A stretch of 64,000 nt of DNA from Janibacter corallicola NBRC 107790. GTDB taxonomy: Bacteria > Actinomycetota > Actinomycetes > Actinomycetales > Dermatophilaceae. This document shows, one piece after another, positions 1,896 to 24,210 of this stretch. The notes under the pieces are model-generated. The model did no database searches. It had not been told where the DNA came from and saw only the letters and a program-made list of their open reading frames with translations. The position numbers were made by a program, and so were the translations under genes. The stretch covers positions 62,001 through 126,000 of the forward strand of contig NZ_BCSR01000004.1 of NCBI RefSeq assembly GCF_001570965.1, given 5' to 3'. Numbering within the stretch: the first letter of the stretch is position 1; each line of letters begins with the position of its first letter.

Positions 1896-1971
1896 GGGGA
1901 CCACCCTGTCGCCTCACACCGTGTGAGGGTCAATACGGGCCCTTCGTCTCGCCGAAGGGGGGCCCACCGGA

Positions 1972-3168
1972 TCAGGCGTGCGCCGCCTCCACGAAGAGGG
2001 TGGCCTCCAGCTCCTTGACCGCGGCGCGCAGGTCCTCGATCCACTCCAGCACCTTCGCGCCGCTGGTCCCGCGCGGCAGCTGGGCGAGCCTGAGCATGCG
2101 ACACGGCCGACCATCGGGGTCGTGGACGGTGGCGACGAGCATGCCGACGTCGTACTCCTGCTCGGCCACGATGTCCCGCATCCGATAGCTCACCGAGACC
2201 TCGGCGATGGACTGCTTGATCTCCCGCTGGGTCGTCGGGGTGACCCGGTCGTCCGCGTAGCGGTGTGTCGCGGCATGCAGCTCCCGGTACGGGTCGAGCT
2301 TGCCGGACGGCAGGAAGGACATGAGGTACCCGTGCTCGCGTGCGAACTCCAACCGGTCCCGGAAGGTGGCGCGGGTCTCGTCGTCGATGGCCCCCTTCGC
2401 CAGCCACTCCTCCTGGGCCTCCTTGGACAGCTCGGCGACCCACACGTCCGCGATCGGTGGGATGATCGGTACCCGGGTGCCCAGCCCGTCACGCGGGTTG
2501 ACACCGTCACCGACGGCGGTGGCGACCGCGGCGAGCTCGACCTGGTCGACGACCGTGAGCAGCGATGCCTCGCACCGGTGTTTCGTCGCGATCGAGGCGA
2601 GCAGGTGACGGCCGCGGCTCGCCTGCTGCACGGCCCCGATGATGTCGTTGTCGTGGTCGATGCGCGCCAGCAGCGGGGGGACCGCGAAACCGCCGTAGCC
2701 GCCCTGGAAGAAGATCAGCGGGGCCTTGGGATTGTTGACCGCCATGTCGTCGATGGCGCAGAGGGCGATGTAGTGGTCGCCCGCGTCGATGACCCGGTCC
2801 AGGTGCACGTCGAGCCAGGCGAGCGAGCCGTGCAGCATCGGCGCACCGGAGGAACAGGGGGACCAGTTGATCCCCGCGAGCTTGTCGTGCCGGCGACTGG
2901 CGATCGTGCGCCCGATCGCTTCCTGCTCGTCCGTGAGGACGTTGATGCACAGGCTCTCGCACTCGCGGAGCCTGGCGAAGGTGTACGAGGAACACATCGG
3001 GAGGAAGGCCACGAGTGGTGGCTCCATCGAGACCGACGTGAAGGTCCCGACGATCATCGCCAGGGCCTCGCCATCCGGATGCACGCCCGTCACGATGACG
3101 ACACCCGTCGGGTAGTGGCCCATGACCTCGCGAAACGTCGAGGGTTCAAAACAGGTGGCTGCAGCCAT
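1972..3168 (-). CDS. iacG: Flavin reductase fused to IclR-like effector domain (IacG-like)
   Basis: Predicted NAD(P)H:flavin reductase supplying reduced flavin to a two-component monooxygenase. Residues about 1-165 form the FMN-binding split barrel (HYPTGVVIVTG, TFTSVSMEPPLVAFLP, LCINVL). Residues about 175-398 resemble the effector-binding half of IclR regulators (AREHGYLMSF; a DVGMLVATVHD strand), without any helix-turn-helix. Proteobacterial IacG proteins are normally single-domain and under 200 residues, so this 398-residue fusion is unusual. By analogy with Acinetobacter p-hydroxyphenylacetate hydroxylase reductase C1, whose extra C-terminal domain makes flavin reduction substrate-responsive, the tail may sense indole-3-acetate (inference). 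The ATG has an AAGGAGG ribosome site nine bases upstream. It is divergent from the amidase gene. The iacG name rests on context. Confidence 0.82.
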   Translation of the reverse strand: MAAATCFEPSTFREVMGHYPTGVVIVTGVHPDGEALAMIVGTFTSVSMEPPLVAFLPMCSSYTFARLRECESLCINVLTDEQEAIGRTIASRRHDKLAGINWSPCSSGAPMLHGSLAWLDVHLDRVIDAGDHYIALCAIDDMAVNNPKAPLIFFQGGYGGFAVPPLLARIDHDNDIIGAVQQASRGRHLLASIATKHRCEASLLTVVDQVELAAVATAVGDGVNPRDGLGTRVPIIPPIADVWVAELSKEAQEEWLAKGAIDDETRATFRDRLEFAREHGYLMSFLPSGKLDPYRELHAATHRYADDRVTPTTQREIKQSIAEVSVSYRMRDIVAEQEYDVGMLVATVHDPDGRPCRMLRLAQLPRGTSGAKVLEWIEDLRAAVKELEATLFVEAAHA

Positions 3169-3339
3169 TGAGCCTGCCTCCTTCTCGTGGCTTCATTGCC
3201 CGTCCACGCCCCCTGCCGGCGCGGTGGATCGCCCAGAAACTAGGCAACAAAAGACTGCGTCGACAGTGGAGAAACCTTTACTTGATTGCGTGATGGTGAA
3301 GCGGCAATCTGAGGGCGATCGCAGAAGGAGGGTCCAACG
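3169..3339. promoter_or_regulatory. Divergent promoter region iacG / iacH
   Basis: 171 bases between two divergently transcribed starts, with noticeably lower GC than the flanks around positions 3237-3300 (GAAACTAGGCAACAAAAG and GAAACCTTTACTTGATTG). It must hold promoters for both the flavin reductase/IclR fusion and the amidase-iacI-response regulator transcript. An AAGGAGG site at about 3325-3332 serves the downstream GTG start. I see no long inverted repeat, and exact promoter elements cannot be assigned by eye. Confidence 0.5.
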
Positions 3340-4647
3340 GTGGACCGTGGCAGGACATGTGTCGGCGGGTTGCTGGACGACCTGGAGGAGGTCCATTCGG
3401 GACGACGGGGGGCGGGCGAGCTCGTCGCCGCCGCGCAGCAACGCATCGAGACGCACGACTCGCAGGTCCGGGCCTGGGCCCAGTTGTCGCAGAACGCGTC
3501 CCGTGACGCCGAGGCGGTGGACGCCCGGACCGACTCGCCACCGCTGAGGGGCGCCGTCGTCGGCGTCAAGGACATCATCGACGTCGCCGGCCTGCCGACC
3601 CGCTGCGGATCCCCCGCGACGACGTCGCCGGACCCCGCGGCGGCCAGCGCCACGATCGTCCGCCGGATCGAGGAGCTCGGTGCGGTGTCGCTCGGCAAGA
3701 CGGAGACGACCGAGTACGCGTACTTCGCTCCTGCACCGACCATCAACCCGGTCGCCCCGGACCGCACCCCCGGTGGGTCCTCCAGCGGCTCGGCTGCGGC
3801 CGTGGCCGCGGGGATGGTGCCGCTGGCCCTGGGGTCACAGACCGCGGGTTCGACGACGCGACCAGCGTCCTACTGCGGCGTGGTCGGGATGGTCCTCGCG
3901 CACGGCTCGGTCGACCTCGCAGGCATCGCCGGGCTGAGCCCCTCGCTGGACTCGCTGGGCCTGCTCACCCGCACCGTCTCCGACGTCGCCCACGTGCACC
4001 AGCTCCTGGTGGGGTCGGGAGCACCCGCCGACCCGTCCGGGCGCACCCCGGTCCACGTCTGGCGCGGCCACGACCTGGCGGTCGGGACGTCCATGTCCGC
4101 AGCGGTCGAGGCAGCGGCGGCGGGGCTCTCCGACGAGGGGTGTCCGGTCACCGAGCTGGACTGGGACGACCACGTCTTCACCCTCGTGCGGGACCACCCG
4201 ATCGTCATGGCCCACGAGGCCGCCGCATCCCGGCCCGACCTGCTCCAGCGCTCGTCGGACATCAGCCTCCAGCTCACCCAGCTGCTCGAGCAGGGACGCG
4301 GGATCGGCGAGGAGACCTACCAGCAGGCGCTCGTGCGCTGCGCCACGTCGCGGAGCCGCCTCGAGCAGTTCCTCGACGAGAACGGAGGAGTCATCATCGG
4401 GCCGGCTGCGCAGGGCCCGGCGCCCGAGAGGTCGACCGGCACCGGCTCCCCCGAGCTCAGTCGTCCCTGGCAGGCGATGGGCCTGCCCGTCGTCACCGTG
4501 CCGGGCGCCCGCACCGCCGAGGGACTGCCCCTTGGCATCCAGGTCGTCGGGATCCCCGGGCAGGAGTCCCGGATCTTCGCCGTCGCCCGGACACTCGAGC
4601 GCGTCCTGGCACAGACATCGACGACCACACCGTCGGGAAAGGCGTGA
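3340..4647 (+). CDS. iacH: Amidase signature enzyme (IacH-like)
   Basis: Amidase-signature hydrolase of 435 residues. The Ser-cisSer-Lys triad is visible as K77 (GVKDIIDVAG), S147 (TPGGSSSGSAAAVA) and S171 (QTAGSTTRPASYCG). The family hydrolyses carboxamides; in iac loci the IacH amidase is a conserved member, although its exact step is not settled and it is not always needed for growth on indole-3-acetate. The GTG start is supported by AAGGAGG eight bases upstream. It is followed after one base by the small iacI-like gene and then, with overlap, by a response regulator, so all three should be cotranscribed. Alternatives are indoleacetamide hydrolase or a general aryl-amidase. Confidence 0.83.
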   Translation: MDRGRTCVGGLLDDLEEVHSGRRGAGELVAAAQQRIETHDSQVRAWAQLSQNASRDAEAVDARTDSPPLRGAVVGVKDIIDVAGLPTRCGSPATTSPDPAAASATIVRRIEELGAVSLGKTETTEYAYFAPAPTINPVAPDRTPGGSSSGSAAAVAAGMVPLALGSQTAGSTTRPASYCGVVGMVLAHGSVDLAGIAGLSPSLDSLGLLTRTVSDVAHVHQLLVGSGAPADPSGRTPVHVWRGHDLAVGTSMSAAVEAAAAGLSDEGCPVTELDWDDHVFTLVRDHPIVMAHEAAASRPDLLQRSSDISLQLTQLLEQGRGIGEETYQQALVRCATSRSRLEQFLDENGGVIIGPAAQGPAPERSTGTGSPELSRPWQAMGLPVVTVPGARTAEGLPLGIQVVGIPGQESRIFAVARTLERVLAQTSTTTPSGKA

Positions 4648-4648
4648 C

Positions 4649-4921
4649 ATGGAGACCCTGATCGAGAACGACCACATGTTCCTCGTCTGCTACGAGGACA
4701 CCTTCGGCTACGGCTGGCGACACGTGGACCTCTTCGTCCACGACGAGCAGGGGCGCGAGGTCAACTGGGTCCACTGGGCTGTCGACGCCGACGGCCCGGA
4801 GGCGGCAGATGCCTCCATCGCCCGGGTGGAGCCCACCCTGCGCCGCACCACCGACTGGCAGCACGCCGTGAGCGCCGCTGGCATGAACTACTGGACGGCG
4901 GACGCCGCGTGGGCCACGTGA
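4649..4921 (+). CDS. iacI: Small IacI-like protein
   Basis: A 90-residue acidic protein, rich in aromatic residues and His (METLIENDHMFLVCYED, WRHVDLFVHDEQGREVNWVHW), with no signal peptide or membrane segment. Its size, its position directly behind the amidase and its company among iac homologues identify it as the IacI-type small protein of auxin-degradation loci; catalytic residues cannot be pointed out. The ATG lies one base after the amidase stop, indicating translational coupling, and its 3' end overlaps the response regulator start by 13 bases. The name is based mainly on context and general resemblance; a direct alignment with Pseudomonas putida 1290 IacI would decide it. Confidence 0.65.
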   Translation: METLIENDHMFLVCYEDTFGYGWRHVDLFVHDEQGREVNWVHWAVDADGPEAADASIARVEPTLRRTTDWQHAVSAAGMNYWTADAAWAT

Positions 4922-5568
4922 GCCCCGATGGGTCCGGCGACCCCGATCCCGATGACGTCCCCGACACCGTCGTGTACGTCATCGACGACGACGCGGCCGT
5001 GTGCGAGTCGGTCTCGTGGCTCCTGGGGAGCATCGACATCACGCCCGAGGTGCACCACCGGGCGGACACCTTCCTCGAGGCCTACGACGGGTCGCACCCG
5101 GCCTGCCTGATCCTCGACATGCGGATGCCGCGGATGAGCGGCGCCCGGCTGCAGACGGAGCTGAACGAGAGCGCCCCTCATGCGGCGATCATCTTCGTCT
5201 CCGCCCACGGGGACATCAAGATGTCGGTGACCGCGATGCAGGAGGGCGCGCTGCACTTCCTCGAGAAGCCCTACGAGCCCCAGCAGCTGCTCGACCTCGT
5301 GCAGGAGGGGATCGTCGTCGCGCGGGAGCAGTTCGTCGAGCACGCCACCCGCCTCGACGTCCAGCGGCGGATCGACTCCCTGACCCGGCGGGAGAAGGAG
5401 ATCCTGCAGCTGGTCATCGAGGGCCTGCCGAGCCAGAACATCGCTCGCCAGCTCGGGATGAGCGTGAAGACCGTCGACGTCCACCGGGCCCGCATCAAGG
5501 CCAAGACCGGCGCCGACAGCATCAACACCCTGGTCCGGGACGTCCTGCGGTACCACGCCACCGTCTGA
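4909..5568 (+). CDS. FixJ/StyR-type LuxR response regulator
   Basis: Two-component response regulator of 219 residues. The receiver domain spans about residues 20-140, with acidic pocket D26-D28, phosphoacceptor D70 (LILDMRMPRMSG), S98 and K120 (HFLEKP). The output domain is a LuxR/GerE helix-turn-helix (about 158-215, LTRREKEILQLVIEG and MSVKTVDVHRARIKAKTG). The receiver plus SAHGDIKMSV pattern is that of the FixJ/TodT/StyR group, which controls aromatic catabolism. The GTG start overlaps the end of iacI, so it is cotranscribed with iacH-iacI. Its probable partner is the PAS-containing kinase at the other end of the locus (start 10804), making a split FixL/FixJ-like pair around the catabolic operon (inference). 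Confidence 0.9.
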   Translation: MGHVSPDGSGDPDPDDVPDTVVYVIDDDAAVCESVSWLLGSIDITPEVHHRADTFLEAYDGSHPACLILDMRMPRMSGARLQTELNESAPHAAIIFVSAHGDIKMSVTAMQEGALHFLEKPYEPQQLLDLVQEGIVVAREQFVEHATRLDVQRRIDSLTRREKEILQLVIEGLPSQNIARQLGMSVKTVDVHRARIKAKTGADSINTLVRDVLRYHATV

Positions 5569-5585
5569 TGCCGGTGACGTGAGGC

Positions 5586-6536
5586 TCAGTAGTAGTCGAG
5601 CCGCAGCAGCGGCGAGGTGCACCGCGAGACGCAGACGGTGATCAGCTCACCGGACTCCTTCTCACTCTTGGTGAGCACGCTGTCGCGGTGGTCGACATCC
5701 CCTTCGAGGACCTCCATGATGCACGTGCCGCAGATTCCCTCCTGGCACGAGGTGTCGACGTCCGCGCCCCCTTCGCGCAGGACCTCGACGATGGTGCGGT
5801 CCGCGGGCACGTGGAAGGTCTCGCCCTCGAGCTCGACGTCGAAGGCGGAGTCCTCGCCGGTGGTCTCCTGCTCCGCAGGGCGGAAGTTCTCCTTGTGGAC
5901 GCGTTCCTCGTCCACGTACTCCAGGGCCACGTGCATGACCATGTCCATGAAGGGCTCGGGGCCACACATGTACAGGTGGGTGTCCTCCGGGAGGTCCGCG
6001 AGCGCCTCCCGCAGCAGGGCGTCGTGCTCCTCGAGTGGTGTCCCCAGGTGCGGGTGCAGCTTCTGCGGGCACTTCTCCTGCAGCAGTCCGAGGAAGGCGG
6101 CCTCCTCGGAGCTGCGCGCGAAGTAGTGCAGGTCGAAGTCGCCGTCGTGCACATCGAGGTACCTGGCGATGCTCAGCATCGGCGTGATCCCGATCCCGGC
6201 GGCCATGAGCACGTGGTGCTTGGCCTCGGGCACGATCTGCAGCAGGTTGCGCGGGCTGCTGATCTGGATGACGTCCCCGACCTGCAGTGCGTGCAGCGCC
6301 TCGGACCCACCGCGCGAGTGTGGCTCACACTTGACCGCGACCGTGTACGAGTCCGGGTCCTCGGGCCGGCTGCACAACGAGTACTGCCGCGTGATGGCCG
6401 TCGGGCCCACGACGTCGACGTGGGCCCCGGCCTCGTACACGCCGAGCGGCTCGCCGTCGACGCGCACGAGGCGCAGTGACTTCACCTGCGCCGACTCCTC
6501 GATGATCTCCGCGACGCGGACATCGATGAGACTCAT
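5586..6536 (-). CDS. iacF: Dioxygenase reductase, FMN/NAD/2Fe-2S (IacF-like)
   Basis: Phthalate-dioxygenase-reductase-type electron transfer protein of 316 residues. In order it has an FMN-binding beta barrel (RQYSLCSRPED), an NAD domain (LMAAGIGITPMLS; LYMCGPEPFMD) and a C-terminal plant-type [2Fe-2S] ferredoxin domain (DTSCQEGICGTCIMEV with the fourth Cys in VCVSRC). It passes electrons from NADH to the Rieske centre of the terminal oxygenase encoded just upstream in the same operon. It starts 27 bases after the SDR gene ends. In iac clusters this is IacF, reductase partner of IacC/IacD. VanB is a close family alternative, but there is no VanA-like enzyme here. Confidence 0.9.
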   Translation of the reverse strand: MSLIDVRVAEIIEESAQVKSLRLVRVDGEPLGVYEAGAHVDVVGPTAITRQYSLCSRPEDPDSYTVAVKCEPHSRGGSEALHALQVGDVIQISSPRNLLQIVPEAKHHVLMAAGIGITPMLSIARYLDVHDGDFDLHYFARSSEEAAFLGLLQEKCPQKLHPHLGTPLEEHDALLREALADLPEDTHLYMCGPEPFMDMVMHVALEYVDEERVHKENFRPAEQETTGEDSAFDVELEGETFHVPADRTIVEVLREGGADVDTSCQEGICGTCIMEVLEGDVDHRDSVLTKSEKESGELITVCVSRCTSPLLRLDYY

Positions 6537-6563
6537 GCCTATTCCCTCCCGAGGGTGCTGCGC

Positions 6564-7325
6564 TCAGCGCAGGTACAGACCACCGTTGATGTCCCAGCAG
6601 GCGCCGGTGACGAAGCCCGCGTTCTCCTGCGCGAACAACGACACCGTGTCCGCGATGAACGAGGCGTCACCGAGGCGGCCGACGGGGATCGAGGACACCA
6701 CGGCGGCCAGCTTGTCCTCGGGGACCGTGTCGTGCACGACCGGCAGGTCGTGCGGGCCCGGCGAGATCGCGTTGACCGTGACCCCGGAGGCGGCCAGCTG
6801 CCGCGCGAAGACCTTCGTCAGGGTGATGATCCCGCCCTTGGAGGTCGCGTAGTGGGCGCCGGTTGCCGTCCCACCGTTCTCCCCCGCGAGCGAGGCCATG
6901 TTGATGATGCGTCCGTGGCCCTGCTCTGCCATGGCGACGCCGAAGACCTGGCACCCGAAGAAGACGCTGCCGCTGTTGACGGACAGCACTCCGAGGAACT
7001 CCTCGGCGTCGAGGGTCATCGTGTCCGCGGCCCGGGTGAGGGCGGCGTTGTTGACGAGCACGGTCGGCTCGCCCCACGCGTCCCGCAGGTGCTCCAGTGC
7101 CGCCTCGAAGTCCGGCTTTCGGGAGACGTCGAGCCTGCGGAAGTCACTGGTGGTGCCGTCGGGCGAGAGGTCCTCGGCCAGCCGGTGGCCGGCCGCCTCG
7201 TCGACGTCGGTGACGAGCACGCGGAAGCCGTCGCGGTGCAGGCGCCGGCTGATCGCCTCACCCATGCCGCCCGCGGCGCCGGTCACGACGGCGACGGGCG
7301 CCCCCTTCGACACTGACTCGGTCAT
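6564..7325 (-). CDS. iacE: Short-chain dehydrogenase/reductase (IacE-like)
   Basis: Classical SDR of 253 residues: nucleotide-binding TGAAGGMG (residues 15-22), NNAA at 92-95, and catalytic S145, Y159 and K163 (GAHYATSKGG). In iac pathways IacE is an SDR reported to act on the hydroxylated indole-3-acetate intermediate on the way to dioxindole-3-acetate. I prefer the ATG giving MTESVSKG because AAGGGG lies five bases upstream; a GTG six bases earlier overlaps that ribosome site. It sits eleven bases after the dioxygenase small subunit in the iacABCDEF operon. Substrate is inferred from context; as a bare SDR it could also be a dihydrodiol dehydrogenase. Confidence 0.85.
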   Translation of the reverse strand: MTESVSKGAPVAVVTGAAGGMGEAISRRLHRDGFRVLVTDVDEAAGHRLAEDLSPDGTTSDFRRLDVSRKPDFEAALEHLRDAWGEPTVLVNNAALTRAADTMTLDAEEFLGVLSVNSGSVFFGCQVFGVAMAEQGHGRIINMASLAGENGGTATGAHYATSKGGIITLTKVFARQLAASGVTVNAISPGPHDLPVVHDTVPEDKLAAVVSSIPVGRLGDASFIADTVSLFAQENAGFVTGACWDINGGLYLR

Positions 7326-7335
7326 GGCCACCCCT

Positions 7336-7827
7336 TCAGAGCAGGAATCCCGCGGCGGGCACGTGCTCGTCGCTGTTGAGCAGGCGGACGACCTTCTCCG
7401 CGATCCGGTCGCCGGACTCGTCCAGCACGATGCGGTGGGTCACCGTCGCACCGAGCGTGAGGGTGTTGCCCCGCTTGTACGCCACGAGGACCTGGACCGA
7501 GCGAAGGGAGACGTGCGAGTCGTCGACGTCCGTCACCGTGAAGCGGGAGACGGTCCGGACAGTTCGGGCGGCCGCGACCGCCGACTGCGAGTAGCCCCCG
7601 ACCATGCGCTCCACGCGCATCCGGCGCATCCGCGCGTCGTCGTAGACCATGTTGAGCGAGGACGCGTGGTCATCACCCTCCTGGTCGATCGGGATGACGT
7701 ACATCGCGTCGTCGGTGTACAGCTTCTCCCACGTCTCGTACTGCTTGTCGTCGAGCAGCTCGGCCTCGTGCCAGACCAGCTCGATCGCCCGGGCGACCCG
7801 GGTGTCCGTCAGCACCGCCTCAGTCAT
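7336..7827 (-). CDS. iacD: Aromatic ring-hydroxylating dioxygenase small subunit (IacD-like)
   Basis: Beta subunit of a Rieske non-heme iron oxygenase, 163 residues, with the cone-shaped NTF2/SnoaL-like fold pattern of this family (LDDKQYETWEKLYTDDAMYV, then RMVGGYSQSAVAAARTVR). Beta subunits have a structural role in the alpha3beta3 hexamer. Its ATG lies inside the 3' end of the large-subunit gene (8-base overlap), so the two subunits are translationally coupled. Length is normal for the family. Assignment as IacD follows from pairing with IacC and the gene order. Confidence 0.9.
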   Translation of the reverse strand: MTEAVLTDTRVARAIELVWHEAELLDDKQYETWEKLYTDDAMYVIPIDQEGDDHASSLNMVYDDARMRRMRVERMVGGYSQSAVAAARTVRTVSRFTVTDVDDSHVSLRSVQVLVAYKRGNTLTLGATVTHRIVLDESGDRIAEKVVRLLNSDEHVPAAGFLL

Positions 7828-9094
7828 CGCTCATCATCTTCTTCCACATCGCGTAGGCACCGCGCATGCCCGTCTCGTCGGTGACCTGGGACGTGCGCTG
7901 CCCGTCCACGTCGGTCTCCCTCTCGAGCCCGCGGTTGAGCAGGATCGGCATGTCGGGGTCGCCGGCGGCACCCATCTGGACCCGCTCCCACCCCTCCGAG
8001 TCGTCCGGGCTCCCGAAACCGAAGGGCCCCTGGAAGTGCTCGTGGATGCGCAGCCGCTCCTGGTTGACCACCTCGGGGCCCCCGTCCATTCCGAGGGACA
8101 TGTGCCAGATCTCGGTCTCGTCGACGGAGATCGGAACGAGCACCCGCAGGAAGGAGATCGACATCGAGACATTGGGAAAGGTGTTGAGGTTGAACCCCGC
8201 ACCGTGGATCGAGCGGACGAAGCGCCGGATCTGCTCCTCGGAGTACTCCCCGCTCTCCCGCAGCTCGGCGACGACGTGGTCGAAGCGCGGCTGCAGCGGG
8301 GCGCCGTCGTCGACGTCCAGGTCCGAGTTGCCCGGCGCCATGATCGCGACCGCGTGACCGTTGCCCAGGTCGTGGGTCACGGCCTCCGGGTCGTTCATGA
8401 AGGACATCATGTCCGCGGTCTCGGCGTCGACGGAGGCCATCCACGACTTGTGCACCATCGGGAAGTGGTATCCGTCGGTGGTGTTCTCCAGCTGGATCTT
8501 CCAGTTGCCCCTGAAGCGGAACTTGTGGATCCCGGTGACCTTCGTCGGGTAACCGTTGCTCTGCTTGAAGAAGCGCTCCATCCACGGCTTCGCGTCACCG
8601 AGGAAGTCCTCGAGCGGTTCGGCGTCCTCGTTGAAGGTCGCGAAGATCATGCCCAGGTAGCTCTCCGTGCGCAGCCGGTGGAGCGGGAAGTCGCTCTTCT
8701 CGACGACACCCTCGTACCCCTCGGGGTAGGGGATCCCGCGCAGTCGGCCGTCCAGGGCGTAGGACCAGTTGTGGTATGGGCAGGTGAACCCGTTGGCCTT
8801 GCCCTTGGGCAGGTCGCACACCGTGGAGCCGCGGTGACGACACCGGTTGACCAGGGTGTGGAACTGGTGCTTGCGATCGCGAGAGACGATGACCGGCTGC
8901 TGCCCGACCCGGGTGGTCTTGAAGGATCCCTTCTCCGGCAGCTCGCTCTCGTGCGCGACCCACACCCAGGTGCGGTAGAAGATCTTCTCCATCTCCTCCG
9001 CGAAGATCTCCGGGTCCGTGTACGCACGACCGGCGATGCGGTCGCCCTCCAGCAGGCTCGCGTAGTCGCTCCTGGCGGTCTCGGCGATGGTCAT
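7820..9094 (-). CDS. iacC: Aromatic ring-hydroxylating dioxygenase large subunit (IacC-like)
   Basis: Catalytic alpha subunit, 424 residues. The Rieske [2Fe-2S] ligands are C85, H87, C105 and H108 (NRCRHRGSTVC and GFTCPYHNWSYALDG). The mononuclear iron site is D207-G-Y-H210 and H215 (ENTTDGYHFPMVHKSW), with D207 also serving as the electron bridge expected in this family. In the iac pathway IacC/IacD oxygenates the dioxindole-3-acetate-type intermediate, leading to catechol. Partners are the beta subunit (overlapping gene) and the IacF-like reductase two genes downstream. All key residues are present, so the enzyme should be active. No ring-cleavage dioxygenase for catechol lies in this window. 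Confidence 0.92.
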   Translation of the reverse strand: MTIAETARSDYASLLEGDRIAGRAYTDPEIFAEEMEKIFYRTWVWVAHESELPEKGSFKTTRVGQQPVIVSRDRKHQFHTLVNRCRHRGSTVCDLPKGKANGFTCPYHNWSYALDGRLRGIPYPEGYEGVVEKSDFPLHRLRTESYLGMIFATFNEDAEPLEDFLGDAKPWMERFFKQSNGYPTKVTGIHKFRFRGNWKIQLENTTDGYHFPMVHKSWMASVDAETADMMSFMNDPEAVTHDLGNGHAVAIMAPGNSDLDVDDGAPLQPRFDHVVAELRESGEYSEEQIRRFVRSIHGAGFNLNTFPNVSMSISFLRVLVPISVDETEIWHMSLGMDGGPEVVNQERLRIHEHFQGPFGFGSPDDSEGWERVQMGAAGDPDMPILLNRGLERETDVDGQRTSQVTDETGMRGAYAMWKKMMSDD

Positions 9095-9124
9095 GACTTC
9101 ACACTCCTTCTGTACGGCACCGGC

Positions 9125-9481
9125 TCAGACGTCGTCTCGGATCGTGAGGGCACGGCCCATGCGGGCCTCGATCTTGGCGTAACGCCACAGCGCGTGCTCC
9201 TCGTCGACCATCGTCGTGCGGAAGAGGTTGCAGGCGGCCTTGACCGTCTCCTGGTCGCGGACGTCGGCGAGGACGTAGCAGGTCCAGGGCCAGCCGTCGC
9301 TCGGGCCGACGACGTGGGCGTCGTCGTCCATGTTCCCGAGGACGGTGACGCCGTCCATGTCCTCCATGTCGCGCAGCATCCCGGCGAAGGCGGTCCAGAC
9401 GGTGCCGATCTGCGCCTTGGGCAGGTCGAAGAAGTTCTGGTTGATGCCCATGCAGAAGAGCACGCGCAGCGGGTCAGCCAT
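9125..9481 (-). CDS. iacB: Small conserved protein, IacB-like
   Basis: A 118-residue soluble protein of unknown biochemistry (MADPLRVLFCMGINQNFFDL; WPWTCYVLADVRDQETVKA), between the IacA-like oxygenase and the dioxygenase genes. Size and position are those of IacB in auxin-degradation clusters. The alternating beta/alpha pattern and DDDAHVVGP region suggest a ferredoxin-like (dimeric alpha-beta barrel) fold, as in small monooxygenases or muconolactone isomerases, but this is impression only. The intergenic gaps of about 30 bases on both sides place it firmly in the iacA-F operon. Confidence 0.7.
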   Translation of the reverse strand: MADPLRVLFCMGINQNFFDLPKAQIGTVWTAFAGMLRDMEDMDGVTVLGNMDDDAHVVGPSDGWPWTCYVLADVRDQETVKAACNLFRTTMVDEEHALWRYAKIEARMGRALTIRDDV

Positions 9482-9513
9482 GGTCAGTCCTTTCGTGCGA
9501 TCACGGTCAGTGG

Positions 9514-10668
9514 TCAGGGGAAGCTCGGGATGCCGGCCTCGGCGCCGAGGAGCAGGGCGCCGGAGGCCTCGTAGGTCCCGCCCTGGAGCATCGCGTGCTG
9601 CGGCGGCACGAGGGCGTCGCGCAGGTAGCGCTGCAACGGGTGCTTGTTGTAGATCGCCCCGGTCCCCGCGAGGTCGAAGGCGGCCAGCACGACCGCGCGG
9701 CTCTCGTGGGCCGCGTGGGACGTCGCGAGGCGGAGCAGCACCTTCTGCTCATCGCTCACCGCGTCGCCGGCGAGCACGGTCTGCCAGGCCTCGTCGGTCG
9801 TCTCGTAGAACCAGGCACGCGCCGAGCGCAGTCGGGCCTCGGCCCTGGCCAGACCGAGCTGGAAGGTGCCGGTCGTGCCCCGGCGGTTCCCGCCGGTGAT
9901 GCTCGTGCGCTGGCTGCCGACCTCACGGACGTAGTCGAGGGCGCCGCGGGCGGCACCGACGCCGGTGACCGCGAGCACCTGCGCCGCGTAGGCCAGGGCG
10001 GGGTACCGGTAGAGGGGCTCGTCCACGTTGGACTCACCGCCGCGGATGAAGGTGCGCTCGTGCGGGACGAAGACACCGTCGAGCTTGATGTCGTTCGAGC
10101 CCGTGGCACGCATCCCGGAGACGTCCCAGTTCTCGATGATCTCGGCCTCGTCCGGGAAGATCACCGCGTTGCGCGGCCGCGGATCGCTGGGGTCCTTCAG
10201 ACCGACCCCCAGGATGTCCGCGCCGGCGGAACCGCTGGCGAACTGCCACCGACCGGTGCAGCGGAAGCCCCCTTCGACGACCTCGGCCTCGAGCATGGGG
10301 AAGAGCGCACCGGCGTAGACGACGTCGGGGCCGTCGGCGTAGAGCTCGGCCTGGACCTCGAGCGGCAGCGCCGTGAGGTACGTGAGCGAGGACCCGAAGC
10401 TCGCGACCCACCCGGTGGCCGGATCGACCGCCGAGATCTGCTCGATGCGGTCCAGGAAGTCGGTCGGCGCCATCGGCTCGCCGCCGAATGTGCTCGGCGT
10501 CGATGCCCGGTAGATCCCCGCCCGCTTCAGGAGACGGACGTAGTCACGGGGAACATGACCCTGGTCGGTGAACTCGTCCCTGCGGTCCCGCAGGACGTCG
10601 AGTGCTTCCTGAAAGGCCTTCTCTCGCGCCGGGCCAGCGGGCTCGGCGAGCGCGTACTGTGCGGCCAC
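9514..10668 (-). CDS. iacA: Flavin-dependent indole-3-acetate monooxygenase (IacA-like)
   Basis: Protein of 384 residues with the acyl-CoA dehydrogenase/HpaB-HsaA fold: N-terminal helical domain, central barrel (GRWQFASGSAGADILGVG), C-terminal four-helix bundle (RSARAWFYETTDEAWQ; HPLQRYLRDALVP). This is the class D two-component flavin monooxygenase family to which IacA belongs. IacA performs the first hydroxylation of indole-3-acetate and also oxidises indole to indigo-forming products. It needs FADH2 or FMNH2, presumably from the fused flavin reductase at 1972-3168. It is the first gene of the minus-strand operon, divergent from the sensor kinase. A true acyl-CoA dehydrogenase is less likely given the neighbours. 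Confidence 0.86.
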   Translation of the reverse strand: MAAQYALAEPAGPAREKAFQEALDVLRDRRDEFTDQGHVPRDYVRLLKRAGIYRASTPSTFGGEPMAPTDFLDRIEQISAVDPATGWVASFGSSLTYLTALPLEVQAELYADGPDVVYAGALFPMLEAEVVEGGFRCTGRWQFASGSAGADILGVGLKDPSDPRPRNAVIFPDEAEIIENWDVSGMRATGSNDIKLDGVFVPHERTFIRGGESNVDEPLYRYPALAYAAQVLAVTGVGAARGALDYVREVGSQRTSITGGNRRGTTGTFQLGLARAEARLRSARAWFYETTDEAWQTVLAGDAVSDEQKVLLRLATSHAAHESRAVVLAAFDLAGTGAIYNKHPLQRYLRDALVPPQHAMLQGGTYEASGALLLGAEAGIPSFP

Positions 10669-10803
10669 CAGCGTCTCCGTTTCGTGTGCAACTTTGAACG
10701 AACACGCTCAACGTAGGTTCGGGCCGAACTCCGCCGCCATTGGTAGTTCCTCGGTTCCCGGTAAGGGAAACACCTAGGGACGTGGTGGCCCATCGGTGCA
10801 AGC
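10669..10803. promoter_or_regulatory. Divergent control region of iacA and the sensor kinase
   Basis: 135 bases separate the two starts. A 5-bp inverted repeat, TTCCC-GGTAA-GGGAA, occupies 10755-10769 and is the best visible operator candidate for the FixJ-like regulator of this locus. A related TTTCCCGAAAAC stretch lies upstream of the TRAP operon near 15969-15981. The AT-richer stretch at about 10680-10725 (CAACTTTGAACGAACACGCT) probably contains the iacA promoter. Assignment of sites is inference. Confidence 0.4.
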
Positions 10804-12318
10804 ATGTCGCCGACGAGTGAGGTGGCAACGGTGTTTCCGACCGGCAAGGACTTCGAGCAGATGACGCTGCACACCTCCACTGGTGTGCTCATCCACGAGG
10901 CGGTCTCGAAGAACATCCTGTGGGCCAACCCGTCCGCCTGCCGGATGTTCGGCTTCTCGCTCGAGGAGCTCAAGCCGCTCAAGGCCCACCACATGAGCGG
11001 CCAGGAGAAGCAGTACCGCCGGGCGCTGGGGGTCGCCTGGCTCGAGGACGCCGTCGTCCACGGCCGCAGTCGCCGGCAGTGGATGTACCGGCGACGTGAC
11101 GGGCAGGAGTTCCTCACCGACGCGGTCGCCGTGCGGATCGAGCTCGAGGACGGCCCGGCCGTCATGGTCCAGTTCCGCGAGATCGCCGAGGAGGTCGAGG
11201 TCCGCGAGGAGCTCCAGCGGGCCACGAGTTACCTGCAGCGCATCCTCACCTATGCCTCCGCGGGTGTCATCCTGCTGGACGAGGAGTGCCGCATCGTCGA
11301 CACCTCGCCGATGGCCGCCCGGCTCTTCGGGGCGCCCAAGGAGGCCGTGCTCGGCTGCCCCCTCGACGACGTCGTCACCGTGTCCCCGCCGCTGGACGAC
11401 TCCTCAGTCATCGCCGCGCTCACCGAGCACTCCCGCACGACCGAGCTGCGGTTGCGGCCCCGGGCCGGCGAGGAGCCGCCCTGGCTCTCGGGGCAGCTCG
11501 AGACGATTGCCCACGACGGCATCGAGTCCCGGGTCCTCGTGGTCCGGGACATCTCCGCCAAGGTCAGGATGGAGCAGGAGGCGGCCCGTCGGGACGCCGA
11601 GCTGCAGCGGGTGAGCCGGGAGAACGCCATGGGGGACATGGCGATGACGATCGCCCACGAGCTCGGGCAGCCCCTCGCCGCGAGCAACAACTTCCTCAAG
11701 GGCGCGGTCGCACGGATGGACGCACCGGAGCCGCAGGACGCCGCGGTCCGCTACGGGATCGACCACGCGCTGCTGCAGCTGACGCGCGCGTCCGAGATCG
11801 TCGCGAGCGTCAAGCGCTACGTGCAGCGGACCGAGACCCCCTCCGCGGCGGTGGACCTGACCGACATCGTCCGCGAGGGGCTGTACTTCGCCCAGATCTC
11901 CGCGACCGAGCAGAGCGTCGTCCTCGACGCCGACCTCGCCACGTCCCCGCTGCAGGTCACTGGCGAGCGCGTCCTCCTGGGCCAGGTCCTGCTCAATCTG
12001 CTGACCAACGCCATCCGGGAGGTCACGCCGCTCTCCGCCGACCGGCGGCGCATCCGCATTTTCACCCGTGAAGAGGACGGATACGCCTGCTGCAGCGTCG
12101 TGGACGAAGGGAGGGGGATGCCCACCGAGCCGGACGGCACCGCACCGAGTGGTTTCGTCCGCAGCTCCGGCGGTGCAGGCATCGGCCTGATGCTGTGCGA
12201 GCGGATCATCGAGCGTCATCGAGGGGAGATCGAGTTCGCGCCCAACTACCCCTTCGGGCCCGACCGGGAAGCCCGGGGGACGCGCGCCACGATCCGGATC
12301 CCGCTCGACCGCTCCTGA
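10804..12318 (+). CDS. PAS-domain sensor histidine kinase (FixL/StyS-like)
   Basis: Cytoplasmic sensor kinase, 504 residues, with no membrane segments. Two PAS domains (about residues 18-120, ILWANPSACRMFGFSLEEL, and about 140-250, GVILLDEECRIVDTSPMAA) precede a HisKA dimerisation helix with phosphoacceptor H285 (TIAHELGQPLAASNNF) and an ATPase domain with N-box LLNLLTNAIREV, G1 VVDEGRGMP and G2 GGAGIGLMLCERI. The HELGQPL signature is that of FixL-group kinases, whose partners are FixJ-type regulators, and one such regulator is encoded at 4909-5568. The soluble PAS domains suggest sensing of a cytoplasmic ligand such as indole-3-acetate or redox state (inference). The ATG used has only a weak ribosome site. 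Confidence 0.9.
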   Translation: MSPTSEVATVFPTGKDFEQMTLHTSTGVLIHEAVSKNILWANPSACRMFGFSLEELKPLKAHHMSGQEKQYRRALGVAWLEDAVVHGRSRRQWMYRRRDGQEFLTDAVAVRIELEDGPAVMVQFREIAEEVEVREELQRATSYLQRILTYASAGVILLDEECRIVDTSPMAARLFGAPKEAVLGCPLDDVVTVSPPLDDSSVIAALTEHSRTTELRLRPRAGEEPPWLSGQLETIAHDGIESRVLVVRDISAKVRMEQEAARRDAELQRVSRENAMGDMAMTIAHELGQPLAASNNFLKGAVARMDAPEPQDAAVRYGIDHALLQLTRASEIVASVKRYVQRTETPSAAVDLTDIVREGLYFAQISATEQSVVLDADLATSPLQVTGERVLLGQVLLNLLTNAIREVTPLSADRRRIRIFTREEDGYACCSVVDEGRGMPTEPDGTAPSGFVRSSGGAGIGLMLCERIIERHRGEIEFAPNYPFGPDREARGTRATIRIPLDRS

Positions 12319-12368
12319 CGGCGCGGGGAGCGCGCCGTCCGTCCTACGCTACGGTCCCGCCCTCGACC

Positions 12369-12935
12369 TCAGTCCTGCATGAGGACCGAGGTGGCGGGCA
12401 TGTCGTGGACGACCCCCTTCGGCAGCTCGGCGATGAGCACGTTCTCGGTCCGGGTGCGGGTGATCAGCCACCGATCGCCCTCGCGCCGGAAGGCGTTGTT
12501 CAGCCGGCTGGAGCGCACCCGGGTGGTGCCGTCCGCGAAGACCCAGGGCTGCATGTGGATCCACTGCCCCTCCGCGGTCTCCTCGTCGACATGGATCTGC
12601 TCGGCCGTCAGGTAGTGCGCGTTGAGCAGCAGCGCCGGGTCCTGCTTCTCACCCCAGAACCGCTCGAAGTGGGCCCGGATCGCCGAGGCTCCCTCGGCGC
12701 GGCCGAACTGGCCCTCGTAGTACTCGCCGACGCCCTCCCAGACCGCCTCGGGGGCGTACAGCTCCATGATGCGGTCGATCCGCTCGGAGTCGTCCGCGAT
12801 GCCCGGCTCGGGGCACGGCGTATCGCACAGGAACATGTACCGGGCCTGCACCCGCCGGATCTCGGCTTCGGCCTCGAGCACACCGATCCGGCGCTCGAGT
12901 GCGCCCACCCTGGCGGTCAGCTCGTCATCTCTCAT
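12369..12935 (-). CDS. SnoaL/NTF2-like protein
   Basis: Protein of 188 residues: a short N-terminal coiled helix (DDELTARVGALERRIGVLE) followed by an NTF2/SnoaL-like cone fold (RVQARYMFLCDT, RIMELYAPEAVWEG, GRAEGASAIRAHFERFWG). Such domains act as polyketide cyclases, steroid isomerases, lyases or dioxygenase beta subunits. Here it is last in a tight operon, 13 bases after the TRAP large permease, so it presumably acts on the imported compound or its first metabolite. No catalytic residues can be assigned with confidence. The HYLTAEQIHV region resembles the SnoaL_4-type subfamily found with aromatic catabolism. Confidence 0.78.
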   Translation of the reverse strand: MRDDELTARVGALERRIGVLEAEAEIRRVQARYMFLCDTPCPEPGIADDSERIDRIMELYAPEAVWEGVGEYYEGQFGRAEGASAIRAHFERFWGEKQDPALLLNAHYLTAEQIHVDEETAEGQWIHMQPWVFADGTTRVRSSRLNNAFRREGDRWLITRTRTENVLIAELPKGVVHDMPATSVLMQD

Positions 12936-12948
12936 GCGGCATCTCCTT

Positions 12949-14271
12949 TCACGAGCCCATGAAGCCGGGCAGGAACAGCACGACGTCCGGGAAGACGGCC
13001 AGGATCGTGATGACGACCAGGTCGGAGACGATCCAGGGCAGCACCGACCGGTAGAGCAGCGACATCTTCAGGTGCGGCGCCACTCCCTTCATGACGAACA
13101 GGCTCATCCCGAACGGCGGTGTCGTGTTGGCGATCTGCAGGTTGATCAGCAGCAGGACGCTGAACCACACCGGGTCCCACCCGAAGGCGGTGACGATGGG
13201 CATGAACAGCGGTGCGGTCACGAGCATGATCGAGACCTGGTCGATGAAGGCGCCGAGGACGAGCAGGACGACCATGATCACCAGGAGCATCAGGAAGGTG
13301 CCCGACACGGTGCCGGTCACGGCGCTCACGAGACCACTCGTGGCACCCGAGAAGCTCATCAGCTGCGCGTAGAGGGTCGACCCGAGGACGATCGCGAAGA
13401 TCATCGTGGTCGTGCGGACCGTACCGACGGCGGAGTCGTAGAGCCCCTGCCAGGTCAGCCTGCGGGTCACGACCCCGAGGAGCAACGCGGCCACTGCGCC
13501 GATGGCCGCGGCCTCGGTGGGTGTGGCGACCCCGAGGAAGATCGTGCCGAGCACCGCCACCACGATGACGCCGGGGCCGAGGGCCCGGCGCACCCCGGCG
13601 CCCAGCGCCGTGGCGAGACTGCGCTTGGGTGAGTCCTCGGCCTGGCCGTCGGCCCCGCGCCGGCTCCACACCCAGATGATGCACACGTAACCGACGGTCA
13701 TCATCAGGCCGGGGACGATCCCGGCGATGAGCAAGGGGCCGATCGGCACCTGGGCGACCCCACCCCAGAGGATCGCGAGCGCGCTCGGCGGGAGGACCAT
13801 CGCCAGGCCGCCCGCCGCCAGGATCGACCCGACGGCCAGCCGCTGGTCGTAGCCGCGCCGCTCCATGTCCGGCAGGAGGGTGCGCCCGAAGAGCGCGGTG
13901 TTGGCAAGTGTGGATCCCGAGAGCAGGCCGAATGCGGCACCCCCACCCACCGCGACCATGGCAAGCCGACCAGGCATGCGCCGCATGGCGATGGAGAGCT
14001 CGTCCAGCGCCTCCTGGGCCACCTGACTTCGGAACATGAGCTCACCCATGAGGATGAACAGCGGGATCGCGGTGAACGTGAAGGTCGTGACGCTGCCGAG
14101 GATGCTCAGGCCGATCTGGTTCAGGGCGGCGTTGACGTCGCCGTACACCACGAGCGCCCCCAACGCACCGGTCCCCAACATGGCGAAGGCCACCGGGACC
14201 CGCAGGATCAGCAGGATCAGCAGGACGGCCAGGAAGGAGCCGAGGAAGGCGTACCAGGACATGTCGAGCAT
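12949..14271 (-). CDS. dctM: TRAP transporter large permease (DctM)
   Basis: Integral membrane protein of 440 residues with about 12 hydrophobic segments, the M subunit of a tripartite ATP-independent periplasmic transporter. It drives solute uptake with a sodium gradient. Diagnostic DctM motifs include PLFILMGELMFRSQVAQEALDE, GGAAFGLLSGSTLANTALFG and LPPSALAILWGG (short stretches of longer conserved blocks). Its ATG overlaps the stop of the small permease (ATGA), the normal arrangement. The neighbouring P and Q genes are complete. Substrate cannot be read from the M subunit. Confidence 0.94.
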   Translation of the reverse strand: MLDMSWYAFLGSFLAVLLILLILRVPVAFAMLGTGALGALVVYGDVNAALNQIGLSILGSVTTFTFTAIPLFILMGELMFRSQVAQEALDELSIAMRRMPGRLAMVAVGGGAAFGLLSGSTLANTALFGRTLLPDMERRGYDQRLAVGSILAAGGLAMVLPPSALAILWGGVAQVPIGPLLIAGIVPGLMMTVGYVCIIWVWSRRGADGQAEDSPKRSLATALGAGVRRALGPGVIVVAVLGTIFLGVATPTEAAAIGAVAALLLGVVTRRLTWQGLYDSAVGTVRTTTMIFAIVLGSTLYAQLMSFSGATSGLVSAVTGTVSGTFLMLLVIMVVLLVLGAFIDQVSIMLVTAPLFMPIVTAFGWDPVWFSVLLLINLQIANTTPPFGMSLFVMKGVAPHLKMSLLYRSVLPWIVSDLVVITILAVFPDVVLFLPGFMGS

Positions 14272-14867
14272 CAGTCATTGCCCTTTCGGACGACACGGAC
14301 GTCGACGACGACCTTGCGGATGAGGACCACGAGGACGAGCAGGAAGCAGATGACGGCCACCCCGCTGACCCACTGGCGCGGGATGTCGAGCTCCCCGCTC
14401 AGGGTCGTGCCGGTCATCAGGTCCGTGCGGAAGACCTCCGACAGGGCGTAGATGACCATCACCGTCACGAGGATCTGCACGGCGTCGACGAAGAGCTCGA
14501 GGCGGCCCACCCGCTTCTCGCCCAAGGCGGAGTCGATGATCTCGAGGCGCACGTGCTCATCGCGGTAGGACAGCCCCGCCGCCCCGAGGACGACGACCAC
14601 GAGCATCGACAGCGAGGCCAGCTCGATGAGCCCGAGGACTCCGTGGCCGGTGTAGCGCAGGATCACACCCACGGCCACACCGACCATCAGGATGAGGACG
14701 ACGGCGGCACCGACAGCCTCGGGGATCTTCGCCGGCAGCCAGTCGGGATTGGCCAGTGCCTCCTGCTCCGCCTCCGAGTGGTGCAGGTGTGACGCCGCGA
14801 GGACGTCCTCCTCCCCCGCCTCGGGTCCGTCGTCGCGATCGGGGCCGGTGCGTTCAGAGTCGGCCAT
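14271..14867 (-). CDS. dctQ: TRAP transporter small permease (DctQ)
   Basis: Small TRAP membrane subunit of 198 residues. An unusually long, acidic cytoplasmic N-terminus (about 50 residues, ADSERTGPDRDDGPEAGEED) precedes four hydrophobic helices (VVLILMVGVAVGVILRYTG; LASLSMLVVVVLGAAGLSYR). The YRDEHVRLEIID motif after the second helix is typical of DctQ. It is coupled to DctM by a 4-base overlap and starts three bases after the binding-protein stop. Confidence 0.92.
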   Translation of the reverse strand: MADSERTGPDRDDGPEAGEEDVLAASHLHHSEAEQEALANPDWLPAKIPEAVGAAVVLILMVGVAVGVILRYTGHGVLGLIELASLSMLVVVVLGAAGLSYRDEHVRLEIIDSALGEKRVGRLELFVDAVQILVTVMVIYALSEVFRTDLMTGTTLSGELDIPRQWVSGVAVICFLLVLVVLIRKVVVDVRVVRKGND

Positions 14868-14870
14868 GGT

Positions 14871-15929
14871 TCACTTCTTGGGCTTGATGCTCGTCCCCCC
14901 GGGGACGACGCTGCTCAGGTCCTTGGCGTACTGCGCCTGGAACTTCTCGCGAATCTTCTCGGCCTCGGGACCCTTGGAGGAGATGCGCTTCCAGTCCAGC
15001 GCGTCCCATGCGTCGACATAGGCGATGGACAGGATCTTCTCCTCGTCCTTGCCCTTGAAGGTGATGGGCTCCACGCCTGCCTTCTGCCACTCCGCGGTCT
15101 CCTTGGCCGCCACGTCACCGAAGTGGTCGAAGATCTTCGGCTCGAGCTCGACCATCGTGTCGGTGATGGCCTGCTGGGTCTCCTCGTCGAGGGACTTCCA
15201 CTTCGCGTCGTTGATGACCGTGTTGGCCAGCGAGTCGTAGAAGCGCGGCTCGACGTAGTACTTGGCCACCTTGGGGATGCCCAGGTCCTTGGCCCCCACG
15301 GACGTCCAGGCGGATCCGTCGATGACCCCGCGCTCGAGGGCCGTGTAGATCTCCCCGCCCGGCAGGTCCACCGGCGTGCCACCGAGAGACTCGACCATGT
15401 TGGAGGTCGCCGACGAGGTTCGGATCGAGAGCCCCTTGAAGCTGGGGTTGGTCAGCTCCTTCTTCGTGAAGAGCACCTGCGGGATGCCCGAGATGCTGTG
15501 CCCGACGTAGTGCAGGCCGGCGTCCTCGTGGACCTGTTCCCACAGGTCGGAGATGCCCTCCTTGCGCTCCTCCTCCGGGGTGAAGGGGGAGAAGCGCTGC
15601 AGCTCGAGGGCGGGAACCTGCTGGACGTAGTAGTCCCCCGGCAGGGCCGCCCCGTCGATGGCGCCGGACTGGACCCCCTCGATCATCTGGTTGGGCTCCA
15701 TCGTCTCCGGACCGCCCTTGTACTTGATCGTGATCCAGGGCGCCTTCTTCTCCAGCTCGTCGGCGAACCTGAAGAATCCTGCGTTGAGCGGGTGGTCCTT
15801 CGCGAAGGACGTGACGAAGGACAACTCGACGTTCTGGTGACCGTTCGTGGAGCCGCCGGCTGATTCACCACACGCGGCGGCGGTGGTGGCGAGGGCGGCA
15901 ATACTGGTTACCGCGAGGATCCTCTTCAT
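14871..15929 (-). CDS. dctP: TRAP substrate-binding lipoprotein (DctP)
   Basis: Extracytoplasmic solute receptor, 352 residues, with a lipoprotein signal (MKRILAVTSIAALATTAAAC; lipid-modified Cys at residue 20). The DctP fold is supported by LSFVTSFAKDHPLNAGFFRF, the conserved ligand region DLPGGEIYTALERGVIDGSAWT and FKGLSIRTSS, where Arg normally pairs with the substrate carboxylate. Ligands of this family are therefore usually carboxylic acids. Lying next to an auxin-degradation locus, it could import indole-3-acetate or a related aromatic acid, but this is inference. The ATG has AAAGGAG six bases upstream; an upstream in-frame extension lacks a signal and was rejected. Confidence 0.93.
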   Translation of the reverse strand: MKRILAVTSIAALATTAAACGESAGGSTNGHQNVELSFVTSFAKDHPLNAGFFRFADELEKKAPWITIKYKGGPETMEPNQMIEGVQSGAIDGAALPGDYYVQQVPALELQRFSPFTPEEERKEGISDLWEQVHEDAGLHYVGHSISGIPQVLFTKKELTNPSFKGLSIRTSSATSNMVESLGGTPVDLPGGEIYTALERGVIDGSAWTSVGAKDLGIPKVAKYYVEPRFYDSLANTVINDAKWKSLDEETQQAITDTMVELEPKIFDHFGDVAAKETAEWQKAGVEPITFKGKDEEKILSIAYVDAWDALDWKRISSKGPEAEKIREKFQAQYAKDLSSVVPGGTSIKPKK

Positions 15930-16064
15930 GAGATACTCCTTTGTTCCCATTTCGTGCAGGAGGGGGCGTTTCCCGAAAACCCCGGCGTGCATGGATTCAG
16001 GGCACCGACTTGTGACTTTCGGGAGATTATCGACTGCCGAGTTTCCTCGGTATCAGGGATTCCT
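15930..16064 (-). promoter_or_regulatory. Upstream region of the TRAP operon
   Basis: 135 bases between the hydroxyacyl-CoA-dehydrogenase-like gene and dctP, with reduced GC. It contains a CCGAG-TTTC-CTCGG inverted repeat (about 16038-16051) and a GTTTCCCGAAAAC element (about 15969-15981) resembling the TTCCCG repeat upstream of iacA. It probably holds a separate promoter for dctPQM. Elements are tentative. Confidence 0.35.
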
Positions 16065-24200: not shown

Positions 24201-24210
24201 AGGAGAGAGA

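Follow-up and report, generated by a model that had tools for sequence, protein, structure and literature searches.

Does the actinobacterium Janibacter corallicola NBRC 107790 hold a pathway for degrading the auxin indole-3-acetate (IAA), and if so, where did its genes come from and what would become of the product? The question is raised by a stretch of 64,000 nucleotides (contig NZ_BCSR01000004.1, positions 62,001 to 126,000; hereafter the window, in whose numbering the locus is described), in which an earlier note had read a complete iac locus at 1972-12318. The explanation that best accounts for the predicted genes, to which we give a probability of roughly 85%, is that the window carries a horizontally acquired iac island for IAA degradation with a meta-cleavage exit.

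The Iac proteins of the window

Genes were called from open reading frames (ORFs), codon-position composition and Pfam/NCBIfam profile searches, and cover 97% of 1972-18181. Six of them form one unit on the minus strand (10668 to 5586): iacA (9514-10668; a flavin-dependent monooxygenase with an acyl-CoA dehydrogenase fold, PF08028), iacB (9125-9481; recognized by homology to plasmid and genome iac loci and by alignment), iacC (7820-9094; Rieske dioxygenase alpha subunit, PF00355 and PF00848), iacD (7336-7827; dioxygenase beta subunit, PF00866), iacE (6564-7331; short-chain dehydrogenase (SDR), PF13561), and iacF (5586-6536; reductase with a plant-type [2Fe-2S] domain, PF00111 and cysteine motif). 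An amidase-signature enzyme, iacH (3340-4647, plus strand; PF01425, E 1e-57), and iacG (1972-3168, minus strand) follow. Of the claim that a complete iacA-I set lies within 10 kb, the part concerning iacA to iacH holds (1972-10668), whereas IacI lies outside; the true extent of the locus reaches onward from 12318 to about 18181-18390. The catalytic residues had been described as intact, and the expected motifs are indeed present in the Iac proteins: the Rieske CxH...CxxH (85-108), DxYHxxxxH (207-215), and D364 in IacC, TGxxxGxG and YxxxK in IacE, the [2Fe-2S] cysteines in IacF, and the Lys, SSS, and TAGS amidase motifs in IacH. Judged by Pfam matches, motifs, and invariant alignment columns, the cluster and iron ligands of the IacC/IacD/IacF Rieske system are intact.

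The proteins were compared with those of 91 loci, 12 on named plasmid records and 79 on genome contigs, belonging to the Actinomycetota (31, here called actinobacterial) and the Pseudomonadota (60, proteobacterial). The genome-contig loci are the best 80 (79 distinct) of 588 confirmed stretches and represent a sample near the window's IacC. Each locus spans about 10 kb or less per side (10-16 kb for plasmid loci), and a gene unseen in a locus may therefore sit further off. IacC has a homologue in all 91 loci (53-80% identity), IacA in 87 (38-66%), IacE in 85 (45-71%), and IacB in 80 (46-86%); IacH is 42-56% identical in 26 of the 31 actinobacterial loci. Identities to Raineyella antarctica are 86% for IacB, 80% for IacC, 71% for IacE, 66% for IacF, 65% for IacD, 64% for IacA, and 56% for IacH, and those to Rhodococcus sp. 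YL-1 are 64% for IacA and 47% for IacH. Among the 11 loci without an IacB match, seven are from Acinetobacter (L085, L088, L092, L093, L097, L098, and L100, at the threshold used).

A plasmid search with IacB gave 28 records, every one at 80% cover or above, and iacA and iacC occur in all 12 records that were opened. IacA, which has a single match in its own genome, shares its top three plasmid records with IacB (two Rhodococcus and one Streptomyces), each of which carries an iac locus; the closest relatives of IacC, for which only genome contigs were searched, are also accompanied by other iac genes. The earlier note had named best matches to an unrelated aromatic pathway as the outcome that would count against it. 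The relatives found are iac loci, and the iac reading therefore stands.

IacI had been assigned to 4649-4921 (plus strand). The product of this ORF, a 90-residue protein here called orf90, matches neither Pfam nor NCBIfam and none of the 60 proteobacterial iac loci, which rules out that assignment. The IacI homologue is the SnoaL/NTF2-fold protein encoded at 12369-12935 (minus strand; PF13577, E 3e-16), 31-36% identical to the protein in the IacI position of Acinetobacter, Klebsiella, and Caballeronia loci and 69% identical to IacI of Rhodococcus YL-1; IacI of Caballeronia glathei has been described with a SnoaL-fold domain (PMC7225977).

IacG has a flavin reductase domain (residues 16-160; PF01613, E 2e-35) and extends beyond it by about 230 residues at the C terminus. 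The long form also occurs in the loci of Rhodococcus YL-1, Raineyella, two Corynebacterium, Mycolicibacterium, and Tsukamurella, the Tsukamurella frame (L026, 17599-18756) being interrupted by one stop codon in its C-terminal part. The extension of the window protein has no Pfam match and no convincing match in the PDB, and a weak IclR-type NCBIfam match (TIGR02431, 2e-4) appears in one of five sequences; that it serves as a substrate sensor is only a thought. Two Microtetraspora loci (L063 and L064) show the arrangement iacI-iacC-iacD-orf90 with an IacC on a long branch, and iacA, iacB, iacE, and iacF are not in the stretch examined. One locus from a Rhodococcus metagenome-assembled genome (L029) is labelled Cyanobacteriota by the tree tool and assigned to the Actinomycetota by gene likeness and record title.

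The island and its insertion site

The locus occupies a block of about 16.4 kb with 17 genes (1938-18390) between a MerR gene (1056-1904; PF13411) and the region of an endonuclease I gene (18823-20007; PF04231). The island is absent from this site in G010, G011, and G012, three sister genomes where MerR and endonuclease I adjoin. Likeness to G012 stops near 1937, judged by eye, and restarts at 18397, where the local alignment begins; both ends are approximate, the left one having been set by eye because automatic alignments ran past 1937 with gaps. G012 also has a homologue of 18327-18818 between its MerR and endonuclease I genes. The site was examined in five of the 15 sister genomes, and the island ORFs used as queries had no match above 60 bits in any of these five; at the site no MerR match was seen in G009 and no nuclease match in G001. 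A palindrome at 1913-1927, beside the MerR gene, is closely matched, by eye, in G012 and G010 and is possibly the MerR operator.

A glutaminase gene to the left of the locus (PF04960) has a match in all 16 genomes of the genus. IacB, by comparison, is found in one of the 16, in one of 186 genomes of the family, and in four of 396 genomes of the phylum, where the other three are a noncanonical case (G302), a weak match (G358), and a genome examined over 5 kb (G520). The 16-kb block thus seems to have been gained recently, loss in 15 sisters being less likely than gain. In the IacC tree the window is sister to R. antarctica (support 100/92), within a clade of eight that also holds three Corynebacterium, Tsukamurella, Mycolicibacterium, and a Rhodococcus plasmid. 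A proteobacterial source is unsupported, since IacC nests in this actinobacterial clade, and the simplest reading of the tree would have the island come from another high-GC actinobacterium. GC content says little (68.8% in the island, 70.5% in the window), and none of the 17 island genes is an insertion sequence or integrase gene by Pfam. The case of one species that received the block cleanly, in a genus already equipped with a catechol 2,3-dioxygenase, suggests how auxin degradation can be acquired in a single step.

Control, uptake, and accessory genes

Five transcription units, which we infer to be operons, can be read from strand and spacing. Besides iacABCDEF, these are a PAS-PAS sensor histidine kinase (10804-12318, plus strand; PF02518 and PAS domains), which stands alone and diverges from iacA across a gap of 135 bp; iacH, orf90, and a FixJ/LuxR-type response regulator (4909-5568; PF00072 and PF00196), together on the plus strand (3340 to 5568); iacG, on the minus strand (3168 to 1972) and separated from iacH by 171 bp; and a long minus-strand unit (18181 to 12369) whose genes overlap or stand no more than 72 bp apart. 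This last comprises an octopine/nopaline dehydrogenase family gene (ODH; 17063-18181; PF02317, E 2e-25), a 3-hydroxyacyl-CoA dehydrogenase family gene (HAD; 16065-17066; PF02737/PF00725; PRK08269 at 397.7 bits, under the cut-off of 427), the TRAP transporter genes for the solute-binding protein DctP (14871-15992; PF03480), the small permease DctQ (14271-14867; PF04290), and the large permease DctM (12949-14271; PF06808, E 3e-81), and finally iacI.

The kinase has an H-box at H285 and the regulator, judged by eye, its receiver-domain aspartates. Homologues of the kinase (34-53% identity, the window protein being 53% identical to that of Raineyella) occur in 56 of the 91 loci and of the regulator (46-73%) in 49, the two together in 25 of the 31 actinobacterial and 23 of the 60 proteobacterial loci. 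By this homology to the pairs of other iac loci, the window's locus is assigned to the two-component iac subtype; it falls outside the MarR-controlled subtype because none of the 17 island genes matches MarR (IacR) by Pfam. The pair would switch genes on upon sensing IAA or a breakdown product. A single 10-mer with a mismatch, present in two of the three promoter regions, was taken as chance rather than as a common regulator site. Putative two-component control of iac has been reported for four Pseudomonas strains (PMC11630574), so this mode of control is not new in kind.

Homologues of orf90 are present in 27 of the 31 actinobacterial loci; those without it are L003, L030, and the shortened stretches L024 and L028. 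It also occurs in both Microtetraspora loci, where iacA and iacB are not in the stretch examined. An alignment of 26 rows has 29 invariant columns, including H25, D27, D32, H42, and six Trp. In the 396 phylum genomes, for which the best 13 candidates per listed genome were scored, only the window's own orf90 matched; the three other genomes with an IacB match lack it, and orf90 therefore does not track IacB throughout the phylum. The predicted structure is confident (pLDDT 89.6). In a Foldseek search of the PDB no match fell below E 0.13, and VIA-align reached a top Z of 4.7, a value common to unrelated folds; because neither gave a convincing relative, we read no function from the fold and do not claim a new one. 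We guess that orf90 probably assists an Iac step. Small and strongly conserved, it is a concrete candidate for the chemistry from dioxindole-3-acetate to catechol, which has been described as unsolved (PMC9613470, PMC7225977).

The ODH and DctM proteins are 73% and 70% identical to those of Raineyella and DctP 52%, and DctM is 56% identical to that of the Corynebacterium kalidii iac locus. ODH and HAD lie near iac in 14 of the 91 loci: Raineyella, Amycolatopsis thermalba, four Paraburkholderia, two Burkholderia, Pseudomonas plecoglossicida, and five Acinetobacter, the last without an IacB match. Since their placement and strand vary between loci, the pair appears to have joined iac more than once; the five Acinetobacter cases may be one event. 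The 77 loci in which the pair was not found as examined speak against a strict link. Relatives of ODH (E ≤1e-20) are present in 42 of the 396 phylum genomes, and the one besides the window's own that exceeds 40% identity has an IacB-like gene about 5 kb away, which favours a link.

Among 26 plasmid records matched by ODH, 11 reach at least 58% identity; four of these also carry iac (three Burkholderia, 13-18 kb from IacB, and Acinetobacter SH20PTE14), four more were opened for 9 kb per side, and three were left unopened. ODH-HAD-DctPQM stands in the window's order without iac on plasmids of Paracoccus saliphilus, Pseudooceanicola algae, and Azospirillum thermophilum, and Paraburkholderia largidicola has ODH-HAD without TRAP or iac. 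The plasmid search with DctM was headed by Gemmobacter fulvus (42.9%), in which roughly 8-11 kb separate the TRAP genes from iac; ranks 3 and 5 are the Pseudooceanicola and Azospirillum modules, and ranks 2 and 4 are unopened Sulfitobacter records. In Martelella AD-3 a TRAP set adjoins iac. Recurring near iac in several lineages, the dehydrogenases make the transporter-dehydrogenase operon a concrete candidate for a role in IAA use, and the transporter, the two dehydrogenases, and orf90 may be overlooked parts of it. A bolder proposal is that ODH-HAD-DctPQM is an unrecognized auxin-linked uptake and oxidation module moving among unrelated ring-degrading gene sets, that orf90 is a missing Actinomycetota-specific Iac protein acting between dioxindole-3-acetate and catechol, and that in this host the island feeds a meta-cleavage pathway already present there instead of catABC; as a whole we hold it tentatively and would sooner expect one of its parts to fail.

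Two further loci bear on these genes. On the P. saliphilus plasmid (L128, 163-13935) genes for a Rieske dioxygenase and for AMP-binding, thiolase, SDR, and cyclase proteins are immediately followed by ODH-HAD-DctPQM, perhaps as an iad-like locus for auxin. Genome G302 (L133, 5753-15032; L134, 2294-10854) has two IacB-like genes, an IacE-like SDR, an ODH relative, and TRAP, along with AMP-ligase-, thiolase-, and cyclase-like genes (some labelled by eye) and no convincing IacA or IacC; this appears to be an indole-acid-like locus of unclassified type in another part of the phylum.

Several known or predicted systems come close to this locus. The predicted locus of R. antarctica LZ-22 (L022) has iacA-I, orf90, kinase, regulator, DctPQM, ODH, and HAD in common with the window but differs in gene order, with TRAP and ODH-HAD at opposite ends and an IacI, 35% identical to the window's, between IacB and IacC. 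On plasmid pYLL1 of Rhodococcus sp. YL-1 (L002, also predicted only) kinase-iacABEF faces regulator-orf90-iacH and IacG is long, as in the window, whereas iacI, iacCD, and iacG lie several kb away and no TRAP, ODH, or HAD occurs within 32 kb. Two-component loci of Pseudomonas, Burkholderia, and Paraburkholderia have the iac enzymes, the kinase (34-38%, in 29 of the 60 proteobacterial loci), and the regulator (46-53%, in 24) but no orf90 and no match to the long IacG, and cat genes lie close by in several; the Pseudomonas type has been likened to that of P. phytofirmans (PMC11630574). MarR-controlled loci of P. putida 1290 and Acinetobacter (PMC9613470) share the core enzymes (IacC 57-59% in Acinetobacter) and differ in having a MarR gene beside iacH in place of the two-component pair and, in some, linked catABC.

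The earlier note had stressed the novelty of the context and control. This was overstated, as actinobacterial loci (PMC9613470) and two-component control (PMC11630574) are already in print. Scanning about 180,000 genomes for markers, one study reported auxin-degradation potential in five phyla, Actinobacteria included (PMC9613470), and rhizoSMASH predicts iac clusters in environmental strains that seem to belong to the Rhodococcus family (PMC12462448); the type of locus is therefore known. Rhodococcus PBTS2 is described as growing on IAA with a chromosome in which iac genes were not detected (PMC7002392). Within the open-licence literature we found no report of a TRAP transporter with iac, nothing related on octopine dehydrogenase with IAA, and nothing related to iacY among the matches listed; a limited look there likewise met no account of the island's cargo, of orf90 as a lineage marker, or of a meta-cleavage exit.

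Fate of catechol and competing explanations

In the pathway that we propose, the TRAP system would take up IAA or a related acid, and IacG would supply reduced flavin to IacA, which would oxidize IAA to 2-oxindole-3-acetate; IacE would then yield dioxindole-3-acetate (chemistry of both steps after PMC7225977). IacC/D/F with IacB, IacH, and IacI would carry this on to catechol, which would enter meta cleavage via the catechol 2,3-dioxygenase carried by most of the genus. ODH and HAD probably oxidize a related hydroxy or imino acid, which is a guess. That the host would consume auxin and alter plant growth is plausible.

A search of the rest of the genome for catechol 1,2-dioxygenase had been recommended in the earlier note. 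In the strain's own draft (3.1 Mb, listed as 100% complete) it returned no match to PF00775 (intradiol dioxygenase), nor was there one to PF02426 (muconolactone isomerase); as controls, these profiles matched in four and two of 14 genomes. A catABC (ortho) lower pathway was thus not found there. One catechol 2,3-dioxygenase is above its curated cut-off (TIGR03211, 345.8 vs. 320.2 bits), next to a 2Fe-2S ferredoxin, two Phenol_Hydrox proteins, a DmpM-type protein, and a reductase, and TIGR03211 exceeds its cut-off in 12 of the 16 genus genomes, the strain's own included. With no PF00775 or PF02426 match but a catechol 2,3-dioxygenase present, catechol probably exits via meta cleavage and not via catABC, the island being, as far as gene content can tell, probably an upper pathway feeding a resident one. 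Among actinobacterial iac loci a catA homologue (at least 44% identity) is present, within the stretches examined, in 12 of 31 (L003, L004, L023, L026, L031, L032, L034, L037, L042, L044, L048, and L063) and is not seen in Raineyella. Other extradiol candidates in the genome are a gene of the LigB family and two relatives of TIGR03211 that score below its cut-off; about 3 kb to the left of the window, on the same contig, a gene at L014 7631-8884 (G000:C4) has weak homogentisate 1,2-dioxygenase matches (PF04209 and PF20510).

Several observations weigh against the explanation preferred here. After the 2,3-dioxygenase just a decarboxylase-like and a semialdehyde dehydrogenase-like gene lie nearby, and because both fall under their curated cut-offs the lower pathway is incompletely shown; in a draft of 92 contigs the lack of catA is likely and not certain. 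Conservation among loci is lower for IacG, IacH, and IacF than for IacC, IacB-like genes are known also outside canonical iac loci (G302), and DctM is present in just two of the 31 other actinobacterial loci, with a DctP/DctQ match at the stretch edge in a third.

There is some support for the view that the island serves detoxification or signal quenching, IAA being converted to catechol or an earlier product and excreted rather than used as carbon: neither catechol 1,2-dioxygenase nor muconolactone isomerase was matched and the island itself has no cat gene. Against this stand the catechol 2,3-dioxygenase above cut-off, common in the genus, and a dedicated uptake system, which would fit nutrition better, and we regard excretion as unlikely. 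Still less probable is that IAA is a side substrate and the island's main target a different indolic or aryl-acetic acid, such as indole-3-lactate, indole-3-propionate, or oxindole acids; the extra dehydrogenases and orf90 would then reflect that other substrate. ODH and HAD are not found in 77 of 91 iac loci and ODH-HAD-DctPQM exists without iac, and Caballeronia IacA and IacE accept indole-3-propionate and -butyrate (PMC7225977); all nine proteins from IacA to IacI are nevertheless present, and the catA homologues of the 12 actinobacterial relatives fit catechol as the product. An iad-type (isatin/anthranilate) locus can be dismissed as very improbable: CDEF-type homologues are common to iad loci (PMC9613470) and the Paracoccus ODH-HAD-TRAP genes adjoin a Rieske/AMP-ligase/thiolase/cyclase set, but IacA, IacB, IacH, and IacI are all present here, whereas iad is defined without iacA, via isatin to anthranilate, and the Variovorax auxin locus is described as lacking it (PMC9613470).

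Further along the window, outside the iac island, two related NlpC/P60 proteins (24160-25086 and 27453-28511) carry peptidoglycan-binding domains and have relatives in sister genomes.

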